A stretch of 20,728 nucleotides of DNA from a virus, in IMG/VR virus record IMGVR_UViG_3300032073_000334, positions 1-20,728 of that record. One strand, written 5' to 3'. The notes beneath the pieces are model-generated. The model was not told where the DNA came from, searched no databases, and saw only the letters and a list, made by a program, of their open reading frames with translations. The position numbers and the translations under genes are program-made. This document shows, piece after piece, positions 7,354 through 18,501 of the stretch; position 1 is the stretch's first letter, and each line of letters starts with the position of its first letter.

Positions 7354-9861
7354 ATGTTTGAGGAAGATAACAGAACAGAAGAAGAAATCCAGTCCGACAA
7401 AAGGTTGAACGAGCAGTGCTTTATGCTTGCAAACATTGACACCTTTCAGAATTGGGGTAAGGGCATCTCGTACCCGAATATTTTAAAATTAGATGGTGGC
7501 ACACCAAAGCAGTTTATTGGAAAACTGGTCAAAAGATCCGGGTTTGAAGATATATCTAAGCTTAAGCCTGTGCAGATTTCAAAACTAATTCCATATATTA
7601 AATTGTATAAAGTTTATTACCCATCCGACACTTCGGAGGGTACTGAATATGAACTTAAGTTTGATAACCACCTCCAGTCCAGCACTGTTGAAAGTATAAT
7701 GTCAACTCGTACAGGGCGAGGCTCGGGCATCGGTATAAAAAGTTTTGAGTGGAAGCTCGCAGGTGGCAACCCAGTGGAAGCCGACAGGATGATTGAAGCC
7801 AAGATGGTTTTGTTCTTCCAGAGTATGGATGACCTCCTCAAGAAGATGCCATCAGATCCTGTTTCTGGAGGAGGAGAGTCTAGAGACGTTAGCTATATTG
7901 ATTTAATCCATCAGGCGAACAAATTTAACACAGCACCTTGTTCTGGGGATCGGACATATAATAATAAATATTTTAGAATAAAGGCAACAGTTGGCTGGTC
8001 AGCACCCAACGGAGCCGATGGCGAATTAAACGAAACACATAAGGTTATGGAATCCGCATCGGCAACGGTCTTTCTTACTATGGTTAAGCATGATATCTCT
8101 TTTGACGATTTAGGTGGGGTTACGCTCACTGTTGATTATATGGCTGCTCCCGAAGCTCTTCTCTCGGATCCCCGAGCAGATGTTTTATCCGTTGACCTTG
8201 AGGCAACCGCTGCGAGAGCAGACGCAATGAGACAGCGAGAGCAGTTACAGACCCAAGGAGAGCAAGCTTGCGGCGACGGTCGCCAACGAGATCAAGATGC
8301 GCAAGATGAGCAAGCCGAGAGCGTAGCTGCAATGGACAAGGCTATTCGTGATGCTAATGCGGAGAGGTATAAGGCTTTTTTGCAGAAATTAGAGGAGATG
8401 CAAGCAATTTATTTTATTGACGTGGATTATCGTGAGCTTGATGCGTACCAAGAAAGTTATTTCTTTGGTCTTATTGAGGGTGACCTTGCGACCAGAGAAC
8501 AACAGATTCGTCAAAGATTAGAGGCGATGCGAGAATATAGTTCTGGAACTCCATCTTGGGCAGATAGCGGTCTTCAGAGATCTCCAGAGGGAGCTACTTC
8601 AGGTCTTCAAGAAGCTGTTGATACTGCTGCCTCCGGAGAAGATGGTGCTATTGACGATGCAAGAGAGGAAGCCAACGAGAGTGCGACCTCTGACGAGACT
8701 GGTGTAGGCGGCGCAATTTTTAACGGCTTGGCTAATCTGGTAACAGGTGGTAACAGGTGTACGTCTCCTAATGAAAAGAGGGTGAATTTCTTGTTTCTCG
8801 GGGGGATACTGGAAGTTGCCTTTGGTGCGGTAAAAAAAGATGAAATGATGAAAGAGATCAGAACAATCGTTGGTCCTTTTGACTACAGAGATCCAGTCTC
8901 CAGTGATAGAAAAAGTATTTGTCTTGCTGATATACCAATCTCTTTGAATATGTTTAAGATATGGTATTTTGAGCAAGCCGTTGTACCGCAGCGTGAGATT
9001 TGGACAATTAAAGATTTTATTAAAAATATTGTTGGAACCTTGGTTGAACCTGCTATGGGTCAGGATTGTTTTGGGTCTTGTGCCAACGGGTTTAGGACTA
9101 GAACAAACATGAGGCTTATGGAGCTTCCACTTTCTGATGACAAGAAGTGCAGAATTACTGGAACCTCAAACGTAGATGCCTTCGGCGGTGGCGGAACTAA
9201 ACAAATGGGTGCGTTAGATATTCTTCCTTGGCCTACGGACCCCGATAAGAACCAAAGCGGTCTTCACTCTGGTAGTTATTTTATGATTTACGCATCCGGC
9301 GCAACAACAAACAATGGTCCACCCCCTTCAGGTGGAACAAGAGAAGAAAGGGATGCTGAATTGGGTATTTATCACTTTACAATTGGTTCTGATCGTGGTA
9401 TTGTGAAGAAGGTTAGTTTTAAGAGGGAGGACGCTCCGCATGTAGCTGCGTCTAGAATTAATGCCGATGGACCCGGAAGGTTAGCGATCCGAGCGATGTA
9501 CAATGCTGATGTTGAATTAATCGGAAACTCTATTTTTGTTCCCGGTCAGATGGTGTTTATTGATCCCGGCTCTTTTTCCACTGGCGGCGACTCCGGTGTG
9601 GCAGGCTCCGCAGCAAACATCTTGGGCATTGGTGGCTACTATCTTGTGACAAAGGTCGATAATGTTATTGAGTCTGGTAAATTTGATACTCGCCTTTCTT
9701 GCATCTGGCAATCTTATGGAGAAGGGAGAGTTGCAGCTATGGATAAATACTGTGAGGTTCCGTCTTCTGGCGACTGCGCCGAAGATTGTGAAGAGGCTGA
9801 ATCTGAAGCACCTACGAATGCGAATACTGTACCGAATGCGGAGATACCTAGTTTAAGTTAG
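7354..9861 (+). CDS. Large baseplate/tail virion structural protein (835 aa)
   Basis: I do not recognise a named family with certainty. Residues 1-275 look beta-rich, with long polar loops. Residues about 275-400 are Gln/Arg/Glu/Ala-rich and probably a coiled coil or long helical insertion (for example MRQREQLQTQGEQACG). Residues 400-470 are a Ser/Gly/Glu-rich linker. Residues about 470-800 return to compact sequence ending with VPGQMVFIDPG, LGIGGYYLVTKV and a final IWQSYGEG element, a pattern I associate with large virion proteins of T4-type environmental phages. The last 35 residues are acidic and contain three Cys (C773 region and after). The place after the gp53-like gene suggests a baseplate hub or wedge part. 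AAGGGG lies 10 bases before the ATG at 7354. A short perfect 10-bp tandem repeat lies at 8739-8758. Confidence 0.6.
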   Translation: MFEEDNRTEEEIQSDKRLNEQCFMLANIDTFQNWGKGISYPNILKLDGGTPKQFIGKLVKRSGFEDISKLKPVQISKLIPYIKLYKVYYPSDTSEGTEYELKFDNHLQSSTVESIMSTRTGRGSGIGIKSFEWKLAGGNPVEADRMIEAKMVLFFQSMDDLLKKMPSDPVSGGGESRDVSYIDLIHQANKFNTAPCSGDRTYNNKYFRIKATVGWSAPNGADGELNETHKVMESASATVFLTMVKHDISFDDLGGVTLTVDYMAAPEALLSDPRADVLSVDLEATAARADAMRQREQLQTQGEQACGDGRQRDQDAQDEQAESVAAMDKAIRDANAERYKAFLQKLEEMQAIYFIDVDYRELDAYQESYFFGLIEGDLATREQQIRQRLEAMREYSSGTPSWADSGLQRSPEGATSGLQEAVDTAASGEDGAIDDAREEANESATSDETGVGGAIFNGLANLVTGGNRCTSPNEKRVNFLFLGGILEVAFGAVKKDEMMKEIRTIVGPFDYRDPVSSDRKSICLADIPISLNMFKIWYFEQAVVPQREIWTIKDFIKNIVGTLVEPAMGQDCFGSCANGFRTRTNMRLMELPLSDDKKCRITGTSNVDAFGGGGTKQMGALDILPWPTDPDKNQSGLHSGSYFMIYASGATTNNGPPPSGGTREERDAELGIYHFTIGSDRGIVKKVSFKREDAPHVAASRINADGPGRLAIRAMYNADVELIGNSIFVPGQMVFIDPGSFSTGGDSGVAGSAANILGIGGYYLVTKVDNVIESGKFDTRLSCIWQSYGEGRVAAMDKYCEVPSSGDCAEDCEEAESEAPTNANTVPNAEIPSLS
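8739..8758. repeat. Short perfect tandem repeat, 10 bp x 2
   Basis: GGTAACAGGT occurs twice in a row within the 835-residue structural gene, coding for part of LVTGGNRC. Ten is not a multiple of three, so the two copies are read in different frames. It is short enough to be chance. Confidence 0.8.
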
Positions 9862-9874
9862 GGGAGGGGAAGTG

Positions 9875-11131
9875 ATGAAAAGGAAAGATTTATTTAAAAA
9901 TAGTGATATTACTGACCCCAAGGGATCTAACAAGACCGGTGCGTATGGATCGTTTTACTTTAGAGACGTGTATGACTCTTTCATTTTCAAAGATGCCGAG
10001 AAAGATTTGTGGTATGTAGATTCTTATTACGGGAGAATCAATCACGCCAAAGAGGTCGTAATTCCTTCGGAAAAGAATCTGAAGCAATTGTCTAACGATG
10101 AGAGCACGATTTTAGTCTTACCTCCAGTTGCTCTCGCTTGGAACTCTTTGTTAAGTTATGTGGAGAAGGCAAAGTTTCGTGGAGATATGAACACGGAAGA
10201 TTCTTTGTACTCGGAACTCAAGCCAACCTTTGCATGGGCAAGCCCACACAAATACTACACCCAGTATAACGGCACGATGTATGATTCTTTCACCGGTAAG
10301 TTTATGACCTCTGACCGTGACCGAAAGATTAAAAACTTTGACGGTTTTCTGGAAGTCTTTGTTAACTTTGCCGAACGGACATTTAAAAAAGTACCTTGGA
10401 CACGAGAGGGTTTTCTTATGTCAAACCGTGCAACTCCCCACTTCAGTGGGATGTGCATAGAGATCGCAGAGGCACCGCACGATCTTGATTCCCTGAAGGC
10501 TCGCTTCTTGGCAGATAAAAACTTTAAATTTTTTAAAAAAGCAGCAAATCGCCACGGATTCCAAATAGACAAAAATGCACCTTGGCGACTTTTGGCAGAC
10601 TTAGACTCTAGGGGTATGCAAAGGTACATGAAGAAGTCAGGAACCTCAAGGGATGATTTCTATGATGACTATTTTATAAAAAGTTATGAATGGGAACTAC
10701 AAAATTTTAAACATTACCTTTGGGGCTGGTATAATAATTATGTCAATGCCAACCCGGTTGTTCAGGTTGTTGATACAACAAACCGTAAAACAAAGCTAGA
10801 CTTGGTGGTTAGAGAGGCGTATACGGAAGATGAATTGTATGAAAATTATTCAGATCACTTCTTTATGAAACTGTACGTGTACATCCGAGCGATAGAAACG
10901 AACAAACAGTGGTCACAATCAACCTATGACACGGTTGTTTACAAGACGAGAGACTTTTTGAGGCTAAAGGGTCTTAATGTTGCGATGAAATACTTGCACA
11001 AAAACATTGAACCGTGCGTTGCTCAAAAGGCAAAAGAACTTTTTGACAAAAAGAGCTTGACAAGTGAACAAGTTGATGTTATATTAAGGAAGAGAAATAA
11101 GCAGAACAAACTTTCCTTTAGCTATTACTAG
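9875..11131 (+). CDS. Conserved phage protein of unknown function (418 aa)
   Basis: No function is recognised. The protein is soluble-looking, rich in aromatic and charged residues (many Y, F, W, K, D), with no signal peptide or membrane segment. Noticeable stretches are NRATPHFSGMCIEIAEAP, PWRLLADLDSRGMQRYM and a Tyr/Trp-rich helix LQNFKHYLWGWYNNYV. I see no DEDD exonuclease, Walker or other catalytic motif, so it is not an obvious polymerase partner. It lies between the baseplate genes and the polymerase gene. Its end carries a promoter for the polymerase gene. ATG 9875 is chosen over GTG 9872 because GGGGAGGGG then has a seven-base spacer. It may be a virion protein, judging by its 13-base distance from the structural gene, but a replication link is also possible. 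Confidence 0.7.
   Translation: MKRKDLFKNSDITDPKGSNKTGAYGSFYFRDVYDSFIFKDAEKDLWYVDSYYGRINHAKEVVIPSEKNLKQLSNDESTILVLPPVALAWNSLLSYVEKAKFRGDMNTEDSLYSELKPTFAWASPHKYYTQYNGTMYDSFTGKFMTSDRDRKIKNFDGFLEVFVNFAERTFKKVPWTREGFLMSNRATPHFSGMCIEIAEAPHDLDSLKARFLADKNFKFFKKAANRHGFQIDKNAPWRLLADLDSRGMQRYMKKSGTSRDDFYDDYFIKSYEWELQNFKHYLWGWYNNYVNANPVVQVVDTTNRKTKLDLVVREAYTEDELYENYSDHFFMKLYVYIRAIETNKQWSQSTYDTVVYKTRDFLRLKGLNVAMKYLHKNIEPCVAQKAKELFDKKSLTSEQVDVILRKRNKQNKLSFSYY
11057..11085 (+). promoter_or_regulatory. sigma70-type promoter P1, upstream of the DNA polymerase gene
   Basis: TTGACA at 11057-11062, a 17-base spacer, then TATATT at 11080-11085. The -10 is preceded by TGT, giving an extended -10 (TGnTATATT). It lies inside the last codons of the upstream gene and about 53 bases before the polymerase start, so it would give the replication module its own host-type transcription. 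No experimental support is available. Confidence 0.75.
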
Positions 11132-11138
11132 GTGATTG

Positions 11139-12335
11139 ATGATATTTCAGACATTGGACGACAAGAAGCACTGCACGGGCTACTATGCAGGCGGTGAGCT
11201 TTATTATGATACTATCCCGGAGAACGTTGAGCTAACAGGGACTTGGGGTTTTTCACCACACATTACACGTCCCGTAGAATATGCGCAGGTGTATGCGCAG
11301 GGCAAGAGTCTGACAGAGGTATGCCCAGAACAATACGCTCCAGAGTGGCAATCTATTTCAGAAAAGATGAAAGCCTATCTGCGATCCTTTGAATACTCTA
11401 GGGTCTCTCTTGACGAAAACTGTTTTTATGACTTGGTTCCTCACAGATACTTGATGGAATATTGCGAGGTTAAGAATTTAATTTGTCAGCACGTCCTTGA
11501 GAGCTACAGCAAACCGAACAATTATGATTTCTTAGCCGCTGCGGGTAACATGCTCTCTGAAATGGAACGCCGACCTTTAAACATTAATTTAAAAAACTTG
11601 ACGGATAGTCTTTCCAAGCCCAACGTTCGGAACTTTTGGAAAAAAGTGCGAGGTAAAGAGCAGTATATTCGTTACAACCTCTTTGGCACAAAGACCGGTC
11701 GTTTGGCTACGCAGAGAAACAGCTTCCCAATTCACAATTTGAGCAAAGATTTGCGCTGCGTGATTGAACCTGTCAATGATTATTTGGTTGAGCTTGACTT
11801 TAACGCCGCCGAACTTCGTACGATGTTGGCTCTGGCTGGAAAGCCACAGCCCGAAGAAGACATTCACGACTGGCACATCAACAATGTGTTTGATGGTAAT
11901 GAAACTCGTGATGAGGCAAAGCGCAAGGTGTTTGCGTGGATGTACAATCCAGAAAGGAAAGAACCCGCCTTGGATAAGATGTATGATCGTGACTCGGTGG
12001 TGCAGAAGCACTTTGATGGTGAGCAGGTAAACACCTTTTTTGGTAGATCTATTCCATCTGACTCAAAACACGCACTAAACTATATCATCCAGAGCACTAC
12101 GAGCGATCTCTTGCTCCGTAGGATGATTGAGGTTACCCAGCGTCTCGCCGGGATGAAGTCTTTTATATCTTTTTGCATTCATGACAATTTAGTGCTTGAC
12201 ATAAAGGCAGAAGAGTGTTATATTATACCAGAGATAGTTAAGTTGTTCTCAAAGACAGAGCTTGGTGACTATAAAGTTAATATGAGCGTCGGAAAGAATT
12301 TTGGGGACATGAGGGAGACAAAAAAATGGACGTAG
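11139..12335 (+). CDS. Compact family A DNA polymerase (polymerase domain only, 398 aa)
   Basis: This is a template-directed DNA polymerase of the Pol I/T7 type. With ATG 11139 as residue 1, TGRL is at 186-189. Motif A is LVELDFNAAELR, with metal-binding D220 and steric-gate E225. Motif B is RDEAKRKVFAWMY, with R257, K261, F265 and Y269 in exactly the R-x3-K-x3-F-x3-Y spacing. Motif C is HDN at 348-350, where family members usually have HDE. Residues 1-150 would be thumb-like. No 3'-5' or 5'-3' exonuclease domain is present, and the distances between motifs are shorter than in E. coli Pol I, so the enzyme is small. Proofreading would have to come from another gene. The 5'-3' nuclease at 16129-17109 can supply flap removal. 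ATG 11139 is preferred to TTG 11136, with AGGTG just upstream. The end overlaps the next gene by 10 bases. Confidence 0.88.
   Translation: MIFQTLDDKKHCTGYYAGGELYYDTIPENVELTGTWGFSPHITRPVEYAQVYAQGKSLTEVCPEQYAPEWQSISEKMKAYLRSFEYSRVSLDENCFYDLVPHRYLMEYCEVKNLICQHVLESYSKPNNYDFLAAAGNMLSEMERRPLNINLKNLTDSLSKPNVRNFWKKVRGKEQYIRYNLFGTKTGRLATQRNSFPIHNLSKDLRCVIEPVNDYLVELDFNAAELRTMLALAGKPQPEEDIHDWHINNVFDGNETRDEAKRKVFAWMYNPERKEPALDKMYDRDSVVQKHFDGEQVNTFFGRSIPSDSKHALNYIIQSTTSDLLLRRMIEVTQRLAGMKSFISFCIHDNLVLDIKAEECYIIPEIVKLFSKTELGDYKVNMSVGKNFGDMRETKKWT
12196..12224 (+). promoter_or_regulatory. sigma70-type promoter P2, inside the polymerase gene
   Basis: TTGACA at 12196-12201, 17-base spacer, TATATT at 12219-12224, again with TGT before the -10 (extended -10). 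It lies in the 3' part of the polymerase gene, 102 bases before the tubulin-like gene start, and would let that gene be expressed without the polymerase. Confidence 0.72.
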
Positions 12336-13201
12336 TAATAGGTCTTGGAAAAGCAGGTTGTGCTGTCGCAGATTGTTTTGCGGAATATCCACAATATCAG
12401 ATATATAAGATTGATGAGGGCTTGGAGAGCACCGACAGAGTATATTCTATGCCCCAGCGAGACACCTCGGAAGAGTATGAGGCTAACTGTCCAGATCTGT
12501 CTGGGTTTTTTGCTGACCTCTCTGAAGGCACAAACGTGACTTTTGTTTTAGCTGGTGGTGGAAAGATTGCTGGCTGCTCCTTGAGGATCATGGAGCAGAT
12601 TAAACACTGTAACCTTAATGTTCTTTACATCACTCCGGACGTTGGCTTGATGGGTGGCAAGAAGTATTTGCTTAACCGAATTAGCTTCCATGTCTTACAA
12701 GAGTATGCACGTTCTGGTTTGCTGGGCAGCATGTCCCTGATTTATAATCCTTCGGTTGAGAAAGTTGTGGGAGACGTACCAGTACGTGATTACTATGCCC
12801 ACCTCAATGCCGCCTTGGTCAGCAGCGTCCACATGATTAATGTATTTTCAAATACGCCATCAGTGTTTGAGAACGTTAGCGAGACAGAAGAACACCATAG
12901 GATTTTTTCCTACGGGATCATCAATCCGGACTCTGGTGAAGAAAATTTACTTTTTCCCCTTGACAAAGTGAAAGAAAAGGTGTATTATATAGGAGTTAAT
13001 TCGCAGTCTCTAGAGGACGGCGGTTATTTTAAGAAACTGAAAAACAACATGAGGGAGAGGGCTGAAGCAGATGATGTAAAAATTTCATTTCAGATAAATG
13101 AAACCAAGTATGAACAAACGTATGCATATGTAGTTGCCTACGTTGACGATCCACAAAGTGAAAATAATTTAAAAAACTTCTTGACAAATGATCAAGAATA
13201 G
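12326..13201 (+). CDS. Divergent FtsZ/tubulin-like protein (291 aa), predicted GTP-binding
   Basis: The protein's layout follows FtsZ/tubulin. VVIGLGKAGCAVAD (3-16) matches the first glycine loop. After a variable region, VTFVLAGGGKIAGCS (71-85) takes the place of the tubulin signature GGGTGTG. NVLYITPD (98-105) matches the following strand, GLMGGKKYLLNR (107-118) resembles the FtsZ FEGKKR segment, SLIYNPS (137-143) resembles the FtsZ IPND strand, and a helical segment spans 155-175. Residues 185-291 would be the C-terminal domain. A clear T7-loop catalytic acid is not seen. The alternative is an NAD(P) Rossmann protein, because GLGKAG followed by an acidic residue (D30) also fits one, but the downstream order of motifs fits FtsZ better. 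It overlaps the polymerase gene by 10 bases, has GGGAG before the ATG, and has promoter P2 upstream. If real it could form filaments that position or spatially organise phage DNA, as PhuZ and TubZ relatives do, which is inference. Confidence 0.6.
   Translation: MDVVIGLGKAGCAVADCFAEYPQYQIYKIDEGLESTDRVYSMPQRDTSEEYEANCPDLSGFFADLSEGTNVTFVLAGGGKIAGCSLRIMEQIKHCNLNVLYITPDVGLMGGKKYLLNRISFHVLQEYARSGLLGSMSLIYNPSVEKVVGDVPVRDYYAHLNAALVSSVHMINVFSNTPSVFENVSETEEHHRIFSYGIINPDSGEENLLFPLDKVKEKVYYIGVNSQSLEDGGYFKKLKNNMRERAEADDVKISFQINETKYEQTYAYVVAYVDDPQSENNLKNFLTNDQE
12960..12988 (+). promoter_or_regulatory. sigma70-type promoter P3, inside the tubulin-like gene
   Basis: TTGACA at 12960-12965, 17-base spacer, TATTAT at 12983-12988 (five of six match TATAAT). 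It is about 250 bases before the small SH3-like gene and in tandem with P4, so the SSB operon would have two promoters. Confidence 0.55.
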
Positions 13202-13209
13202 GTTATATT
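13181..13209 (+). promoter_or_regulatory. sigma70-type promoter P4 for the small gene and ssDNA-binding protein
   Basis: TTGACA at 13181-13186, 17-base spacer, TATATT at 13204-13209. The -35 and half the spacer lie in the last codons of the tubulin-like gene, and transcription would begin near 13216, about 26 bases before the ATG of the next gene. Confidence 0.8.
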
Positions 13210-13219
13210 AGGTATACCT
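13210..13219. promoter_or_regulatory. Palindrome AGGTATACCT at the P4 start site (possible operator)
   Basis: A perfect 10-bp inverted repeat directly follows the -10 box, over the expected transcription start. This is a classic place for a repressor site, but a 10-bp palindrome can also occur by chance, and no second copy is seen at the other promoters. Confidence 0.3.
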
Positions 13220-13241
13220 TAAACAACAAAAGGAGAGGTAA

Positions 13242-13526
13242 ATGAATATGAAGCTGTACACAGGTACTTTTACGAAAAAGAATGGCGATGAGCGAACGAT
13301 GAATTTTGTTCGTCTTACGGAACTACCAGAGCAGTTCCTAAATACCCGGATTTCCGGTGATGGAAAAGCTCGTACTCTTGCCGAAGGGCATGAGTTGGTG
13401 TGGGATGTAGATAGTGATGCATTCCGAGTTTTTAATTGGAAGACTGTCGTTGGTGAAACAACGTCTGTTGAAAAAGAAGAAACTTTTTTAAACTTTTCAC
13501 TTAACAATTCTACTCAAGTAGGGTAG
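13242..13526 (+). CDS. Small SH3-like protein, DUF2693/WYL_2-like (94 aa)
   Basis: The protein resembles short phage proteins of the DUF2693 (Sm-like/SH3 barrel) type. It has LYTGTFTKKNGDERTMNFV at the start, a middle polar loop, then HELVWDVDSDAFRVFNW, the family-like D-V-x5-F-R-x-F/W strand, followed by an acidic linker. Function is unknown, and proteins of this type are common in early regions of T4-like phages. The ATG at 13242 follows AGGAGAGG and promoter P4. A second in-frame ATG six bases later is an alternative. Its position next to the SSB suggests early expression. Confidence 0.65.
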   Translation: MNMKLYTGTFTKKNGDERTMNFVRLTELPEQFLNTRISGDGKARTLAEGHELVWDVDSDAFRVFNWKTVVGETTSVEKEETFLNFSLNNSTQVG

Positions 13527-13541
13527 AATATATAAACAGAT

Positions 13542-13582
13542 GGGCGGAATATTTGCCGCTCATACTCAAGGGTAATTAACCC
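13542..13582 (+). promoter_or_regulatory. Structured leader before the ssDNA-binding protein gene
   Basis: The 83-base gap holds two possible hairpins. GGGCGG (13542-13547) pairs with CCGCTC (13556-13561), six pairs with one wobble, and GGGT (13570-13573) pairs with ACCC (13579-13582). TACTCAAG also occurs twice, at 13511-13518 and 13563-13570. There is no T tract, so it is not a terminator. T4 gene 32 is regulated by its own protein through a leader RNA structure, and a similar role here is a guess. Confidence 0.35.
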
Positions 13583-13609
13583 AAATAACCATAGATAGGA
13601 GAAAACAAC

Positions 13610-14389
13610 ATGGGTATTGATTTAAAAGCAATGAGAGCGAAGCTTAACCGGCTTCAAAATGGTGGTCGTTCAGGTGGCAAGAGTAATTTCTGGCGACCAA
13701 ACGACGGTGAGCAGACGATTCGCATCGTCCCAACCGCCGATGGCGACCCCTTCAAGGAGTTCTGGTTCCACTATAATTTGGGACAGAACGCAGGGTTTCT
13801 TTCCCCGAAGAAGAACTTCGGTGAAGAGGATCCGTTGAACGATTTTATTCGTTCATTGTACCAAGAAGGTACAGAAGAGAGTATTAAGATGGCTAAGTCT
13901 CTTAATGCTCGTCAGCGATTCTTCGCACCGGTAATTGTGCGTGGTGAGGAGAATCAGGGTGTCCGTGTTTGGGGCTTTGGTAAGACTGTTTACGAACAGC
14001 TTCTGAACCTTGTTCTGAATCCGGAGTATGGTGACATTACAGACCCTTCCGAGGGCACTGATCTCACTCTTCAGTACGGTAAGCCTCAAGGTGCACAGTT
14101 CCCTGTGACTCGCCTGACACCGCATCGCCGTGCTTCAACGATTTGTCCAGACATTTCGCCGGAAGAGTGTGCTCAACTTCTGGAAACGGTTCCAGACTTT
14201 GATGGCTTGTTTGATCGCAAGACTCCAGCACAGGTACAATCCATGCTGGATGAGTATCTTGCTTCCGACAACCCGGAGGAAACTTCGTCAGAAACTACGA
14301 AGTATGGCGGCAACACGACCACTGCCCCAACCACCGGGACGACAGAGACGAACTCTGTTGAAGCAGCTTTCAACGATTTGTTGAGCTAG
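13610..14389 (+). CDS. gp32-like single-stranded DNA-binding protein without zinc ligands
   Basis: This 259-residue replication SSB would coat single strands at the fork and support UvsX. The core spans about 25-200, with KSNFWRPNDGEQTIRIVP, FKEFWFHYN and VWGFGKTVYEQLLNL, as in T4 gp32 relatives. A Ser/Thr/Gly-rich linker follows at about 220-248 and an acidic tip at about 249-259 (SVEAAFNDLLS), the usual site for partner binding. In gp32 relatives the FLCPK and CPxC positions carry zinc Cys. Here they read FLSPK (S65) and DPLN (D74, N77). The only Cys in the protein are at 179 and 187, in another region, so the zinc element seems lost. AGGAG lies before the ATG at 13610, and a strong terminator follows. 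Confidence 0.8.
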   Translation: MGIDLKAMRAKLNRLQNGGRSGGKSNFWRPNDGEQTIRIVPTADGDPFKEFWFHYNLGQNAGFLSPKKNFGEEDPLNDFIRSLYQEGTEESIKMAKSLNARQRFFAPVIVRGEENQGVRVWGFGKTVYEQLLNLVLNPEYGDITDPSEGTDLTLQYGKPQGAQFPVTRLTPHRRASTICPDISPEECAQLLETVPDFDGLFDRKTPAQVQSMLDEYLASDNPEETSSETTKYGGNTTTAPTTGTTETNSVEAAFNDLLS

Positions 14390-14406
14390 ATCAGGATACC
14401 CACGGG

Positions 14407-14440
14407 GGGGCACAGGGTGAACAGGTGCCCCACTTTTTTT
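14407..14440 (+). terminator. Rho-independent terminator after the ssDNA-binding protein gene
   Basis: GGGGCAC (14407-14413) pairs with GTGCCCC (14425-14431) across an 11-base loop, and seven T follow at 14434-14440. It ends the SSB transcript before uvsX. The gap up to 14469 contains no clear promoter for uvsX, so that gene may rely on readthrough or an unseen signal. Confidence 0.87.
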
Positions 14441-14469
14441 AATTAATATTTTTAGGGTGGTGACTCACG

Positions 14470-15606
14470 ATGGCAAAGAAGAATAATACAGGTGCAGGCA
14501 AAATGTCTATTGCTGATATGCGTAAGATGATTAACAAAAAGCATGGGCAATCCGTTGCTTACAATCTTGTAGAGGATAACCCGACGGATGTAAAAGATTT
14601 TATTCCAACTGGCTCACGCTGGCTTGATTCTATTATCTGCCGTGGCAAACGTGGGGGAATCCCCGTAGGTAAGGTTTCGGAGATCGCTGGTCTTGAGGCG
14701 ACCGGTAAATCTTATATGGCTGCACAAGTTGCCTCAAACGCACAGAAGATGGGCATTGACGTTGTGTACTTTGATGCAGAGTCGGCAATTGATTCCAACT
14801 TCTTGACAGCCGCTGGTTGTAATGCCGAGGATATTTTATATATTCAGGCAACTTCCTGTGAATTTGTACTAGAGACGGTTGAGGATATTCTTTCTCAAGC
14901 TGAAAACAGGGTGCTGTTCATTTGGGACAGTCTAGCGTTAACACCCAGCGAGTCAGACATTGCAGGAGACTTCAATCCTCTATCGTCTATGGCAGTGAAG
15001 CCACGAATTCTCTCAAAGGGAATGGCTAAACTTGTACAACCGATTGCAAACGCCGGGGCTACGCTTCTCGTGCTGAATCAACTTAAGACGAATATCACCA
15101 GTAACGTTGCAGAGGCGATGACCACTCCGTATTTTACACCCGGAGGTAAGGCGATGCACTATACTTATAGTTTGCGTGTATGGCTGACTGGTCGTAAAGC
15201 CAAGGCTTCGTTTATTACGGATGACCGAGGTTTCCGTGTCGGCTCCGAGGTGAAGGTGAAGCTAGAGAAGTCTCGTTTCGGTACCGCAGGTCGTCAGTGT
15301 GCGTTTAAGATCTTGTGGGGTGGCGAGGTCGGCATTCAAGATGAGGAAAGTTGGTTTGAAGCTGTAAAGGGTTCTGAACAGTTGGTGTCTTCTGGTTCAT
15401 GGTATACCTTGACCCATTCCGATGGCACGACAGAGAAGTTCCAACCCGGTCGCTGGATGGAGAAGATGGCAAGCGAAAAGTTTAAGACTAGGATTCTTGA
15501 GCTTATGGACGAAGAGGTCGTCTTGAAGTTTGATAAGCGACAAGGTAATGCAGAAGATTTTTATGACGTGGACGGCGAAGAAGAGCTTACCAAAGAAATT
15601 GAATAA
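14470..15606 (+). CDS. uvsX: UvsX-like RecA-family recombinase
   Basis: This is an ATP-dependent strand exchange protein for recombination-dependent replication and repair. Walker A is GLEATGKS (74-81). YFDAESAID carries the RecA-type catalytic Glu (E104). Walker B is VLFIWDS with D153. LLVLNQLKTN (about 193-205) with its Gln is the switch region, and the DNA-binding loop region follows (TTPYFTPGGKAMHY). The C-terminal part (about 300-378) ends in an acidic tail, DVDGEEELTKEIE. At 378 residues it is close to T4 UvsX (391). GGTGGTG lies before the ATG at 14470. It follows the SSB gene, its functional partner, and is followed by a promoter/terminator element. RecA-family membership is certain, and the UvsX name rests on T4-like neighbours. 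Confidence 0.88.
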   Translation: MAKKNNTGAGKMSIADMRKMINKKHGQSVAYNLVEDNPTDVKDFIPTGSRWLDSIICRGKRGGIPVGKVSEIAGLEATGKSYMAAQVASNAQKMGIDVVYFDAESAIDSNFLTAAGCNAEDILYIQATSCEFVLETVEDILSQAENRVLFIWDSLALTPSESDIAGDFNPLSSMAVKPRILSKGMAKLVQPIANAGATLLVLNQLKTNITSNVAEAMTTPYFTPGGKAMHYTYSLRVWLTGRKAKASFITDDRGFRVGSEVKVKLEKSRFGTAGRQCAFKILWGGEVGIQDEESWFEAVKGSEQLVSSGSWYTLTHSDGTTEKFQPGRWMEKMASEKFKTRILELMDEEVVLKFDKRQGNAEDFYDVDGEEELTKEIE

Positions 15607-15722: not shown

Positions 15723-16139
15723 GTGTGTAAGGAACTGCGAGGTTTGAGGATGGCTGCTAAGGCTGCTGAAAATTCAGAACATGATACGTTTAGACACGGT
15801 GCTGTCTTAGTTAAGGGTGGATCAATTATTAATATTGCTGCAAACAACGACAATCACACACCATTTGGGGAGCGTTTTAGGACGAGTCCGGGAAGGGCGA
15901 CACATCACGCCGAGCTTGGCTGTATTATGGGTATTGACAGGACCACCACCACAGGTGGTGTTGTGTATGCAGCTAGGGTTAACAAGTCGGGTAAGTGGAA
16001 GATGAGCAAACCTTGCAGTATGTGCCACGAGGCGATGAAGTTTGTGGGAATTAAAAAAGTTGTGTATACGATAGGTCCAAATGAGTGGGGCTCTTATAAA
16101 ATACATGACGATGAAGTAGAGGTAGGATATGACGAGTAA
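15723..16139 (+). CDS. dCMP/cytidine deaminase-family protein (138 aa)
   Basis: This zinc-dependent deaminase of the cytidine/deoxycytidylate family most likely turns dCMP into dUMP for dTMP synthesis. The active site reads H62-A63-E64 (THHAELGCI) and P97-C98-x2-C101 (KPCSMCHEAMK), giving zinc ligands H62, C98 and C101 and the proton shuttle E64. The start is GTG 15723, with TGAGGA six bases before it. The ATG at 15750 would remove the first helix and has its GAGG directly abutting. It is shorter than T4 dCMP deaminase (193 residues), so substrate choice is uncertain. It overlaps the nuclease gene by 11 bases and is served by promoter P5, and it works with the reductase downstream in dNTP supply. 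Confidence 0.8.
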   Translation: MCKELRGLRMAAKAAENSEHDTFRHGAVLVKGGSIINIAANNDNHTPFGERFRTSPGRATHHAELGCIMGIDRTTTTGGVVYAARVNKSGKWKMSKPCSMCHEAMKFVGIKKVVYTIGPNEWGSYKIHDDEVEVGYDE

Positions 16140-17109
16140 GAAACGGGTGCTGATTGTGGATGCCCTTAATATGTATTTTAGGGCGTATATTGTTGACCCT
16201 TCTTTATCTACAAACGGTCAGCCCATCGGAGGACTCAAGGGATTTCTTAAGATACTCCAGAAGCTCGCAAGGGAAACAAACCCAGATCAGATAGTTGTCT
16301 GCTGGGACGGAGCAGGTGGCTCTCAACGCAGGAAGAAGATCGTCAAGGGTTATAAAGAGGGTCGCAAGCCGATTCGCCTCAATCGTGACATCCGTAATAT
16401 GTCGGAGTCGGAAGAGGTGGAGAACAAGGTTTGGCAACAAACTAGGCTGTTTGAATATCTTAATTGTATGCCGGTCGTTCAGTTGATGTTGGATAGTGTT
16501 GAGGCAGATGATATTATTTCAGCAGTGGTCCAGCACAAGACAATGAAGGATTATCAAAAGGTCATCGTCTCCAGTGACAAAGATTTCTATCAACTGTGTG
16601 ATGATCAAACAGTCGTCTTCAGACCAGTTCAGAAAGAAGTCTTGAACAAAAACAACATTATTGACAAGTTTGGCATTCACCCGATGAACTTCGCTCTGGC
16701 TCGTGCTATTGCAGGTGATAAATCAGATAACCTCCCCGGTGTCGGCGGGGTAGGGTTGCCGACAATCTCAAAGCGACTGCCCTTCTTGTCTGAAGCCAAG
16801 TCTTATACGATTGATGAGGTTGTTGAGCACTGTGAGAAAGAATTAGAAGAGAAAAAACTTAAAGTATTTGAAAATATTGTTTTACAAGAAGACATAGTTC
16901 GGTTAAACTATAAGATGATGCAGTTGTATATCCCGTCCATCCCCGTACAGGGTAATCAGAAGATCTCATATGCTCTAGAAGAGTTTGAGCACCACTTTAA
17001 TAAAACCGAGATTAGGAAGATGATGTTGATGGATGGATTCGGAGAGTGGAATTGGAATGATCTTTTTCAGCGATTGAAGAAGATTTCGGTAGATGGTAAA
17101 GAGGAGTAA
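16129..17109 (+). CDS. 5'-3' exonuclease / flap endonuclease (T4 RNase H-like)
   Basis: This PIN/FEN-superfamily nuclease removes RNA primers and flaps from lagging strands. The acidic metal ligands stand at the expected places: D11 (VLIVDALNMYFRAY), D60 (VCWDG), E125/D127/D128 (SVEADDII), D150/D152 (SSDKDFYQL) and D197/D200 in GDKSDNLPGV. The GVGGVGLPT that follows is the helix-hairpin-helix DNA contact. At 326 residues it is near T4 RNase H (305). It complements the exonuclease-less polymerase at 11139. AGAGGTAGG lies before ATG 16129, which is inside the end of the deaminase gene, so the two are coupled. Confidence 0.88.
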   Translation: MTSKKRVLIVDALNMYFRAYIVDPSLSTNGQPIGGLKGFLKILQKLARETNPDQIVVCWDGAGGSQRRKKIVKGYKEGRKPIRLNRDIRNMSESEEVENKVWQQTRLFEYLNCMPVVQLMLDSVEADDIISAVVQHKTMKDYQKVIVSSDKDFYQLCDDQTVVFRPVQKEVLNKNNIIDKFGIHPMNFALARAIAGDKSDNLPGVGGVGLPTISKRLPFLSEAKSYTIDEVVEHCEKELEEKKLKVFENIVLQEDIVRLNYKMMQLYIPSIPVQGNQKISYALEEFEHHFNKTEIRKMMLMDGFGEWNWNDLFQRLKKISVDGKEE

Positions 17110-17112
17110 TAC

Positions 17113-18501
17113 ATGTCACCAGCAGAAATAAGTCTTGCAAAGTTTGGAACAAGTTTCCAAGAAAATTTAGTTCACCTGATCTTTGAAGATCGTGCCTTCT
17201 CTGATCAAATCAGAGAGGTTCTAGACGTAGAGTTCCTTGAGGTTAAATACCTACGGCTATTTTTAAAGCGTATGTTTGACCATCGTGATAAGTATGGCAC
17301 CCATCCTTCACGGGATGCGATGACAACGATGCTTCGCACAGAACTGGATGGCGAAAACGAAGTTGTGGTCAAGCAGGTGCGTGAGTTCTACGCTCGTATC
17401 TTGTCCGACAAATCCCCAGTCAGAGATCAGGATTACATTAGGAGTGTGTCGCTGGAGTTTTGCCGAAAGCAAAAGCTCAAGGAGGCGTTACTTGAATCTG
17501 CTGATTTGATTAATCGTGTTAGTGATACATCGTACGATGAGGTTCGCAAGAAGATTGATCAGGCTTTAAAGCTCGGTAGTGAAAATAACTTTGGTTACGA
17601 CTATTTGGCAGATTTTGAACGTCGCTTTGAGCTTAAGTCACGCAATCCGATCTCCACCGGTTGGGATAAGATTAACTCTATCACACAGGGCGGTCTAGGC
17701 GTAGGTGAACTCGGTGTTGTCATTGCCCCAACAGGAGTTGGGAAGTCAATGGTTCTTGTTCACTTGGGGGCGGAGGCTCTCAAAGAGGGTAAGACTGTCG
17801 TACACTATACTTTGGAGCTTGGAGACACAGTGGTTGCTTCAAGGTATGATAGCTGTATTACTGGTATCGGCTTGTCCGATCTTTATGGCAGGAAAGATGA
17901 TATCTATGAGCAAGTGCAGGAAGTTCCGGGTCGTCTCATTGTGAAAGAATATCCAACCAAGACGGCAACGACCGGCACAATTACTAATCATTTGGAGAAG
18001 TTGATTGCCCGTGGGATTAATCCCGATGTGGTGATTATTGACTACGGTGATTTGTTAAGACCAATTGACAAGAGAAAAGAAAAAAGAAATGAGCTTGAGT
18101 CTATTTATGAAGAGATGCGAGCCCTTGCGCAGATATATGGGTGTCCGGTTTGGACAGCATCTCAAACGAATAGGTCAGGTCTTAATGCTGAAGTTATTAC
18201 AATGGAGTCTATTTCAGAAGCTTTCAACAAATGCTTCGTTGCTGATTTTATCTGTACTATCTCTCGCACCATTGAGGATAAGAACACGAATGAGGGGCGA
18301 ATGTTCGTAGCTAAGAATAGAAATGGTCCCGACGGAATTGTGTTTCCGATCTTCATGGAAACAAGAAATGTCAAGATTAAGGTCTTGAATCGCAGTCACG
18401 AGACTCCCGAGTCTCTTGCCATTGGTGCATCCAAGAAGCAGGCTGAAAGCCTTAAGGAAAAATATAAAAACTTCCGCAACGTCGGAAGGAAAAAAGAATA
18501 A
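17113..18501 (+). CDS. Replicative DNA helicase, DnaB/gp41-like
   Basis: This 462-residue hexameric helicase of the DnaB family would unwind DNA at the fork. The N-terminal helical domain spans about 1-165, and the RecA-like motor runs from about 175. Walker A is APTGVGKS (205-212, K211), the E235 region is HYTLEL, Walker B is VVIIDYGD (306-313, D310), TASQTNRSG carries the sensor Gln (Q351), and KNRNGPDG carries an arginine (R403) at the arginine-finger place. The C-terminal tail (about 440-462) is Lys-rich. The length matches T4 gp41 (475). No primase domain is fused and no primase gene is seen in the window. The start lies three bases after the nuclease stop, with GAGGAG upstream. Confidence 0.9.
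   Translation: MSPAEISLAKFGTSFQENLVHLIFEDRAFSDQIREVLDVEFLEVKYLRLFLKRMFDHRDKYGTHPSRDAMTTMLRTELDGENEVVVKQVREFYARILSDKSPVRDQDYIRSVSLEFCRKQKLKEALLESADLINRVSDTSYDEVRKKIDQALKLGSENNFGYDYLADFERRFELKSRNPISTGWDKINSITQGGLGVGELGVVIAPTGVGKSMVLVHLGAEALKEGKTVVHYTLELGDTVVASRYDSCITGIGLSDLYGRKDDIYEQVQEVPGRLIVKEYPTKTATTGTITNHLEKLIARGINPDVVIIDYGDLLRPIDKRKEKRNELESIYEEMRALAQIYGCPVWTASQTNRSGLNAEVITMESISEAFNKCFVADFICTISRTIEDKNTNEGRMFVAKNRNGPDGIVFPIFMETRNVKIKVLNRSHETPESLAIGASKKQAESLKEKYKNFRNVGRKKE

Follow-up and report, generated by a model that had tools for sequence, protein, structure and literature searches.

What kind of protein is encoded between the DNA polymerase and the single-strand DNA-binding protein (SSB) of an uncultured virus, and what might it do there? 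The question is raised by the 20.7 kb record IMGVR_UViG_3300032073_000334, analysed at its full length and referred to here as the window, in which all positions are given for the plus strand. The gene (12326..13201) starts with an ATG and encodes 291 residues. Its start codon lies inside the final codons of a family A DNA polymerase (11136..12335; 399 residues, polymerase domain only; Pfam DNA_pol_A, 3.9e-15; phrog_17), with 10 nt shared by both genes, and a ribosome-binding-like stretch, GAGGGAGA, is located approximately 10 nt 5′ of the ATG. On the 3′ side follow an open reading frame of 94 residues (orf94, 13242..13526; a relative is present in 23 of 89 loci), a gp32-like SSB (13610..14389; Pfam gp32, 3.4e-13, and synteny), a UvsX-like recombinase (14470..15606; phrog_97, 1.1e-49), a deoxycytidylate deaminase, a 5′-3′ exonuclease (16129..17109; Pfam 5_3_exonuc_N, 2.3e-31), and a DnaB/gp41-like replicative helicase (17113..18501; phrog_19, 3.5e-75), while contractile-tail genes—tail tube, baseplate hub, and baseplate wedge—precede the polymerase. 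The position between a family A polymerase and an SSB, noted in the initial annotation, is thus borne out by Pfam and PHROGs assignments of the neighbors. The description of the genome as T4-like holds for the contractile tail and the gp32-, UvsX-, and gp41-like genes, but not for the polymerase, which belongs to family A; moreover, among cultured phages only one relative, Microcystis phage Mel-JY01, turned up with this gene order, and it has no detectable copy of the 12326..13201 gene. The polymerase itself shows no exonuclease domain and has IHDN as its motif C (HD[SN] in the clade), where HDE is usual.

According to its predicted structure, the product of this gene is a full-length tubulin/FtsZ fold, recognizable from the fold only. 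The AlphaFold2 model, built on an alignment of 81 sequences (mean pLDDT 94.8, pTM 0.92), combines the elements that define the superfamily: an N-terminal nucleotide-binding domain, a long helix H7, and a C-terminal, activation-domain-like domain (12902..13144), in which DSSP assigns strands to residues 193–199, 217–225, 252–260, and 266–273, and a helix to residues 232–249. A Foldseek search of the PDB returned Bacillus TubZ as the top match (E 9.1e-13), followed by FtsZ, and the best 50 matches are TubZ, FtsZ, and gamma-tubulin. VIA-align, applied as a re-examination of the list that Foldseek had produced, aligned 262–285 of the 291 residues to CetZ, TubZ, FtsZ, and tubulins with Z scores of 20.9–24.4 (CetZ 24.4, at 3.0 Å over 262 residues; TubZ 22.8; FtsZ 22.1; microtubule tubulins about 21); Z was at least 8 for all 705 chains compared, and the best 50 of the 705 listed all belong to the tubulin superfamily. 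Since these alignments span residue 1 to 284–288, they cover H7 and the C-terminal domain. The motif order and spacing had been judged closer to FtsZ than to a plain Rossmann fold, a judgement with which the two-domain model, Foldseek, and VIA-align agree; a dehydrogenase-type Rossmann fold devoid of H7 and C-terminal domain, named beforehand as the outcome that would speak against a tubulin, was found by neither structural comparison.

Sequence searches, on the other hand, do not reveal this relationship. Searched by itself, the window protein had no informative match in Pfam, PHROGs, NCBIfam, PADLOC, or the PDB (phmmer/hmmsearch), did not rise above the cut-off of the FtsZ models TIGR00065 and Pfam PF00091, and, in three versions (one of them an approximate consensus), found no relative by tblastn in 50,697 phage records. 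The 81-sequence alignment used as a profile had no credible match in the PDB, and hhalign detected nothing significant against E. coli FtsZ, the PhuZ of phiKZ (probability 0.7%), or the second phage tubulin family described below. A scan of viral metagenome contigs did retrieve 10 relatives with 33–67% identity, and the alignment built from them extended the family to at least 594 viral loci. When predicted structures of viral proteins were compared, the best matches were proteins of other uncultured phages annotated as FtsZ, cell division protein, or tubulin, which are 11–15% identical. Because no link emerges from sequence searches and even the closest viral structures are this distant, the earlier suggestion of a new tubulin clade is supported. 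The family, undescribed in a full-text search of open-licence papers, is a previously unnamed and very divergent tubulin/FtsZ relative in a large group of uncultured tailed phages. A cellular origin was also considered; the search of bacterial and archaeal genomes gave a sole match in the "chromosome" of a WOR-3 metagenome-assembled genome (CP070664.1, 2246234–2257046; locus L343). This stretch, which holds the tubulin gene together with phage neighbors, is bounded by two 100-N gaps, and it was rejected as probably a mis-binned phage contig; with gaps on both sides, the match is uninformative on the host.

The elements that form the nucleotide pocket are largely maintained. All five motifs quoted in the initial annotation are present in the stated order, and residues were assigned from motif order and secondary structure. 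The T1 glycine loop, GLGKAGC (residues 6–12; 12341..12361), corresponds to a family consensus GLGxAGC, with G6, G8, and G11 in 81/81 sequences and C12 in 78/81. The T4 loop, AGGGKIAGCS (residues 76–85; 12551..12580), is as strongly altered as had been proposed, the family pattern being G-[SAG]-G-x-[IV]-S-[GA] instead of GGGTGTG in the 81 sequences. In a non-significant hhalign alignment with E. coli FtsZ, this loop falls on the FtsZ signature, GxGxISGA lying opposite GGGTGTGA; N141 is paired with the IPND segment, and the LN of H7 with AND. P104-D105, in the T5 region after strand S5 (12635..12640), is conserved as P in 76/81 and as D or E in 77/81. Asn141 (12746..12748; 78/81) is equated, from motif order and its location in the fold, with the T6 Asn that contacts guanine in FtsZ and tubulin. 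The central helix H7 (residues 156–175 by DSSP on the model; 12791..12850) carries the conserved positions Y156-x3-L-N161 and H169-M-x-N172; it opens with Y-[YF]-x-x-L-N in the family, and Asn161 is kept in 78/81. P104-D105, N141, N161, and the T1 and T4 glycines are therefore family-wide positions in this alignment. The segment GGKKYLLNR, compared previously with FEGKKR of FtsZ, is a weaker case: it is present, but common only to the nearest relatives, and columns 111–116 are variable among the 81 sequences.

The catalytic side of the fold presents a different picture. Segment 176–192 (12851..12901), at the place expected for the T7 loop and helix H8, has no conserved acid and no helix; the model predicts an extended segment after H7 instead of H8. 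In agreement with the earlier remark that no T7-loop acid is obvious, no column between residues 172 and 192 is acidic in more than 68% of the 81 sequences, a value reached at residue 189, which adjoins strand S7, while the spacing from N172 to R192 is constant in 81/81. Only 5–22 residues follow the last strand, so the family holds no long C-terminal tail, and the conserved C-terminal tail of FtsZ is absent. The T7 aspartates of SaFtsZ act on the GTP of the neighboring subunit, and filament formation is impaired by each of D210N, D213N, and N208L (PMC8936486), while the D198A version of PhuZ from phage RAY polymerizes at every induction level tested (PMC10299810). With the T7 acids lost, hydrolysis would be expected to be poor, and filaments to be either absent or static. 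With the pocket kept, and the T7 catalytic loop and H8 gone, the protein most likely binds GTP without efficient hydrolysis at subunit contacts; GTP binding without hydrolysis, raised in the initial annotation, is consistent with the modelled and aligned positions.

Archaeal CetZ (3zid and 4b45) shares the two-domain fold, with Z scores of 24.4 and 23.6 over 262–268 residues, but only 12–13% identity, and it is cellular, whereas the window protein is viral and holds neither T7 acids nor H8. FtsZ (2r6r, Z 22.1) shares the fold and, in the non-significant hhalign alignment, the T6 Asn and H7; however, its GGGTGTG signature, NVDFAD T7 loop, and C-terminal tail are missing from the window protein.

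The gene is firmly linked to replication genes. With the neighbors of the window as queries, the SSB was found 3′ of the tubulin in 89/89 loci retrieved by the tubulin, and the polymerase 5′ of it in 81 of them, the rest being mostly short contigs. As these loci had been chosen by the tubulin, the converse search was run from a polymerase alignment, and 76 of 77 new loci carry the tubulin, the remaining contig stopping at the end of the polymerase; the best-scoring 80 loci were kept, so this sample favors viruses more closely related to the window. In 39/74 loci, the tubulin gene overlaps or abuts that of the polymerase; in about 22/74, 280–400 nt, often with a MazG-like gene, lie between them, and a few loci have a gap as large as 2.6 kb. 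Pairwise distances correlate with r of 0.72 for tubulin and polymerase, 0.61 for polymerase and SSB, and 0.48 for tubulin and SSB (58 loci, shared ancestry ignored). The tubulin gene is under strong purifying selection, with dN/dS of 0.04–0.15 between pairs 75–91% identical, in which synonymous sites are partly saturated. In short, one phage clade keeps a tubulin-fold gene at a fixed place next to the polymerase, as part of its core replication module. Such a neighborhood demonstrates shared inheritance and, probably, shared timing, but does not speak for physical contact.

The MazG/HisE-like gene of the polymerase–tubulin interval, assigned to its family by eye, encodes approximately 100 residues with the pattern YNKLVRDKIPEII...EELADILEV and was seen at L005:3685-3999, L015:4699-5001, L021:4684-4995, and about 17 other loci.

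Outside this clade, the same module exists in a sister group exemplified by Mel-JY01, the top UvsX match among phage records. Its order—tail genes, a 408-residue polymerase-like protein, SSB, UvsX, exonuclease, and helicase—is that of the window, and it has no match to the tubulin profile. Likewise, 80 loci found by the Mel-JY01 SSB gave zero tubulin matches, and other genes fill the interval between polymerase and SSB. The possibility that a divergent tubulin occupies this interval was considered and rejected, as the intervening genes, inspected by eye in 14 loci, encode other proteins. The lack of a detectable copy in the sister group indicates that the tubulin marks the clade of the window, and that the replication module as such can work without it. 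In that interval, occupied by the tubulin in the window clade, the sister group has among others a gene for a conserved 130-residue protein (QLLCTFT...VHRKK.TNTLYTINALN; L289:5487-5903, L293:5491-5898, and L183:8980-9369).

Promoter-like sites were found on both sides of the gene by a motif scan. A sigma70-like site, TTGACA-17-TATATT, is located inside the polymerase gene about 100 nt 5′ of the tubulin start (12196..12224), but equal sites are no commoner there in relatives than at mid-gene, leaving a dedicated and conserved tubulin promoter unsupported. A second TTGACA-17-TATATT site, at the 3′ end of the tubulin gene (13181..13209), has counterparts scoring 11–12 of 12 in 29/67 relatives, versus 11/67 at mid-gene, and probably serves orf94 and the SSB. 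Directly 3′ of the tubulin stop, an imperfect palindrome (13202–13227, center GGTATACC) overlaps the −10 element of the latter site and is a possible operator for orf94/SSB. More generally, four TTGACA-17-TATATT/TATTAT sites with 11/12 matches occur within 2.2 kb (11057, 12196, 12960, and 13181), and 17 promoter-like sites were counted in 9700–14600, where 9.0 ± 2.6 are expected.

A second tubulin family, with proteins of about 360 residues, was also found in related and other uncultured phages (L091:1030-2121, minus strand, and also L093–L172). One 165.9 kb genome with a window-type gene encodes in addition a 364-residue protein of this kind, which matches Pfam Tubulin at 3e-6, below the cut-off. 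The L091 type, with at least 107 relatives and no match in the phage record collection, holds GGGGGTGS and FDSKDLER, with GGGTGS and a T7-region D-x-K-D invariant; its profile matches FtsZ in the PDB, and its model (pLDDT 90.2) reaches a Z of 32.7 to TubZ. The L091 type retains the T7 acids and H8, whereas the window type lacks both. The two types occur together in seven genomes examined. Among six window-type records of 102–184 kb, first found by the window family and possibly incomplete, the L091 type is present in one; an alpha/beta-like pairing of both phage tubulins as a general rule was dropped in view of the five without it, and many L091-type genomes are devoid of the window type. By eye, the gene adjoining the L091-type tubulin resembles a T4 gp55-type sigma factor.

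Regarding function, the reading favored here, put forward tentatively and as falling a little short of probable, is that of a tubulin that binds GTP, hydrolyses it poorly, and acts together with the phage polymerase and SSB by scaffolding or tethering DNA synthesis, instead of forming a treadmilling filament that moves cargo. The protein would be made from a gene that overlaps or abuts that of the polymerase, as in this genome and about half of the relatives compared; it would bind GTP through the conserved T1, T6, and H7 positions, and may then self-associate or dock on a partner via its GTP-bound top face. With T7 and H8 missing from the bottom face in both model and alignment, a normal hydrolysis cycle would not take place, and the GTP-bound subunit, whether as a static scaffold or as a polymerase accessory, could organize or tether phage DNA synthesis during infection. 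The confident full-length fold, the pocket kept without T7 acid and H8, the purifying selection, the constant SSB linkage, the presence of the tubulin in all but one of the polymerase-found loci, the frequent overlap, and tubulin distances that follow those of the polymerase more closely than those of the SSB count in favor of this reading; the sister group without a copy and the gaps between polymerase and tubulin in some loci count against it. A bolder version, in which the protein is a GTP-binding, non-hydrolysing core factor of the viral replication machine, of the tubulin superfamily, acting directly with the family A polymerase and without any moving-filament role, is distinctly less likely and must be considered doubtful.

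Host-takeover genes are usually patchy in their distribution, and the fixed link to the polymerase consequently argues against such a role for this tubulin, which is found in every readable locus of the clade and is co-inherited with the polymerase. This bears on a different, rather unlikely explanation, in which the protein is an inhibitor of host division whose tubulin-like, GTP-bound top face caps the growing end of the host FtsZ filament and, for want of a working bottom face, stops division during infection. The geometry is the one expected of a cap, in that the nucleotide elements of the top face persist and T7 and H8 of the bottom face are lost, and FtsZ monomers have been argued to join the T7-exposing filament end by their GTP-bound top face (PMC8936486). 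Nevertheless, a direct mimic of the interface might keep some sequence similarity to FtsZ, and none that is significant was detected.

No better placed is a cytoskeleton similar to that formed by PhuZ in phiKZ-like jumbo phages, in which the protein would form filaments to position or transport capsids or replicating phage DNA. Both are phage-encoded proteins with the superfamily fold, and the departed T4 loop is compatible with polymerization, as that of phiKZ PhuZ reads GGASGST. However, the window type has no significant profile match to PhuZ, lacks the T7 DxxD, H8, and the long tail typical of PhuZ and TubZ, and is encoded between polymerase and SSB; furthermore, a protein search of nine large genomes with the phiKZ chimallin (gp54) gave no match, while the phiKZ positive control was found; a very divergent chimallin could escape such a search. 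The three missing elements, catalytic T7, H8, and C-terminal tail, speak against a motor of the PhuZ kind. A TubZ-like protein that partitions an extrachromosomal or pseudolysogenic phage genome is very improbable, even though TubZ proteins from Bacillus plasmids (4ei7, 2xkb) are the top Foldseek matches: identity is approximately 15%, the T7 acid and the long C-terminal tail are missing, and the gene belongs to a replication cluster directly after tail genes, with no iterated, centromere-like (tubC-type) repeats within 11000–14500 and neither a TubR-like neighbor nor a partition operon recognized, although more distant repeats or a TubR of unfamiliar sequence could have escaped notice. Lastly, a Rossmann-type NAD(P)/nucleotide enzyme misread as a tubulin, to which weak N-terminal sequence matches (TrkA_N and an oxidase) might point, is scarcely credible, being contradicted by the high-confidence two-domain model and by the agreement of every chain compared.

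The phage tubulins known so far, PhuZ and TubZ, position or partition DNA. The present family, which occurs throughout a large phage clade and is tied to the replicative polymerase gene, has lost the catalytic loop responsible for tubulin dynamics. If the scaffold or tether reading is true, the tubulin fold can also function within a replisome or next to one. In any case, the tubulin superfamily gains on its viral side a family whose active site is altered and whose genomic setting is unusual, and the core genes of a widespread group of uncultured phages include one "unknown" fewer. A small natural tubulin of about 280 residues, without the usual GTPase cycle, offers a test case for the abilities that remain in this fold.
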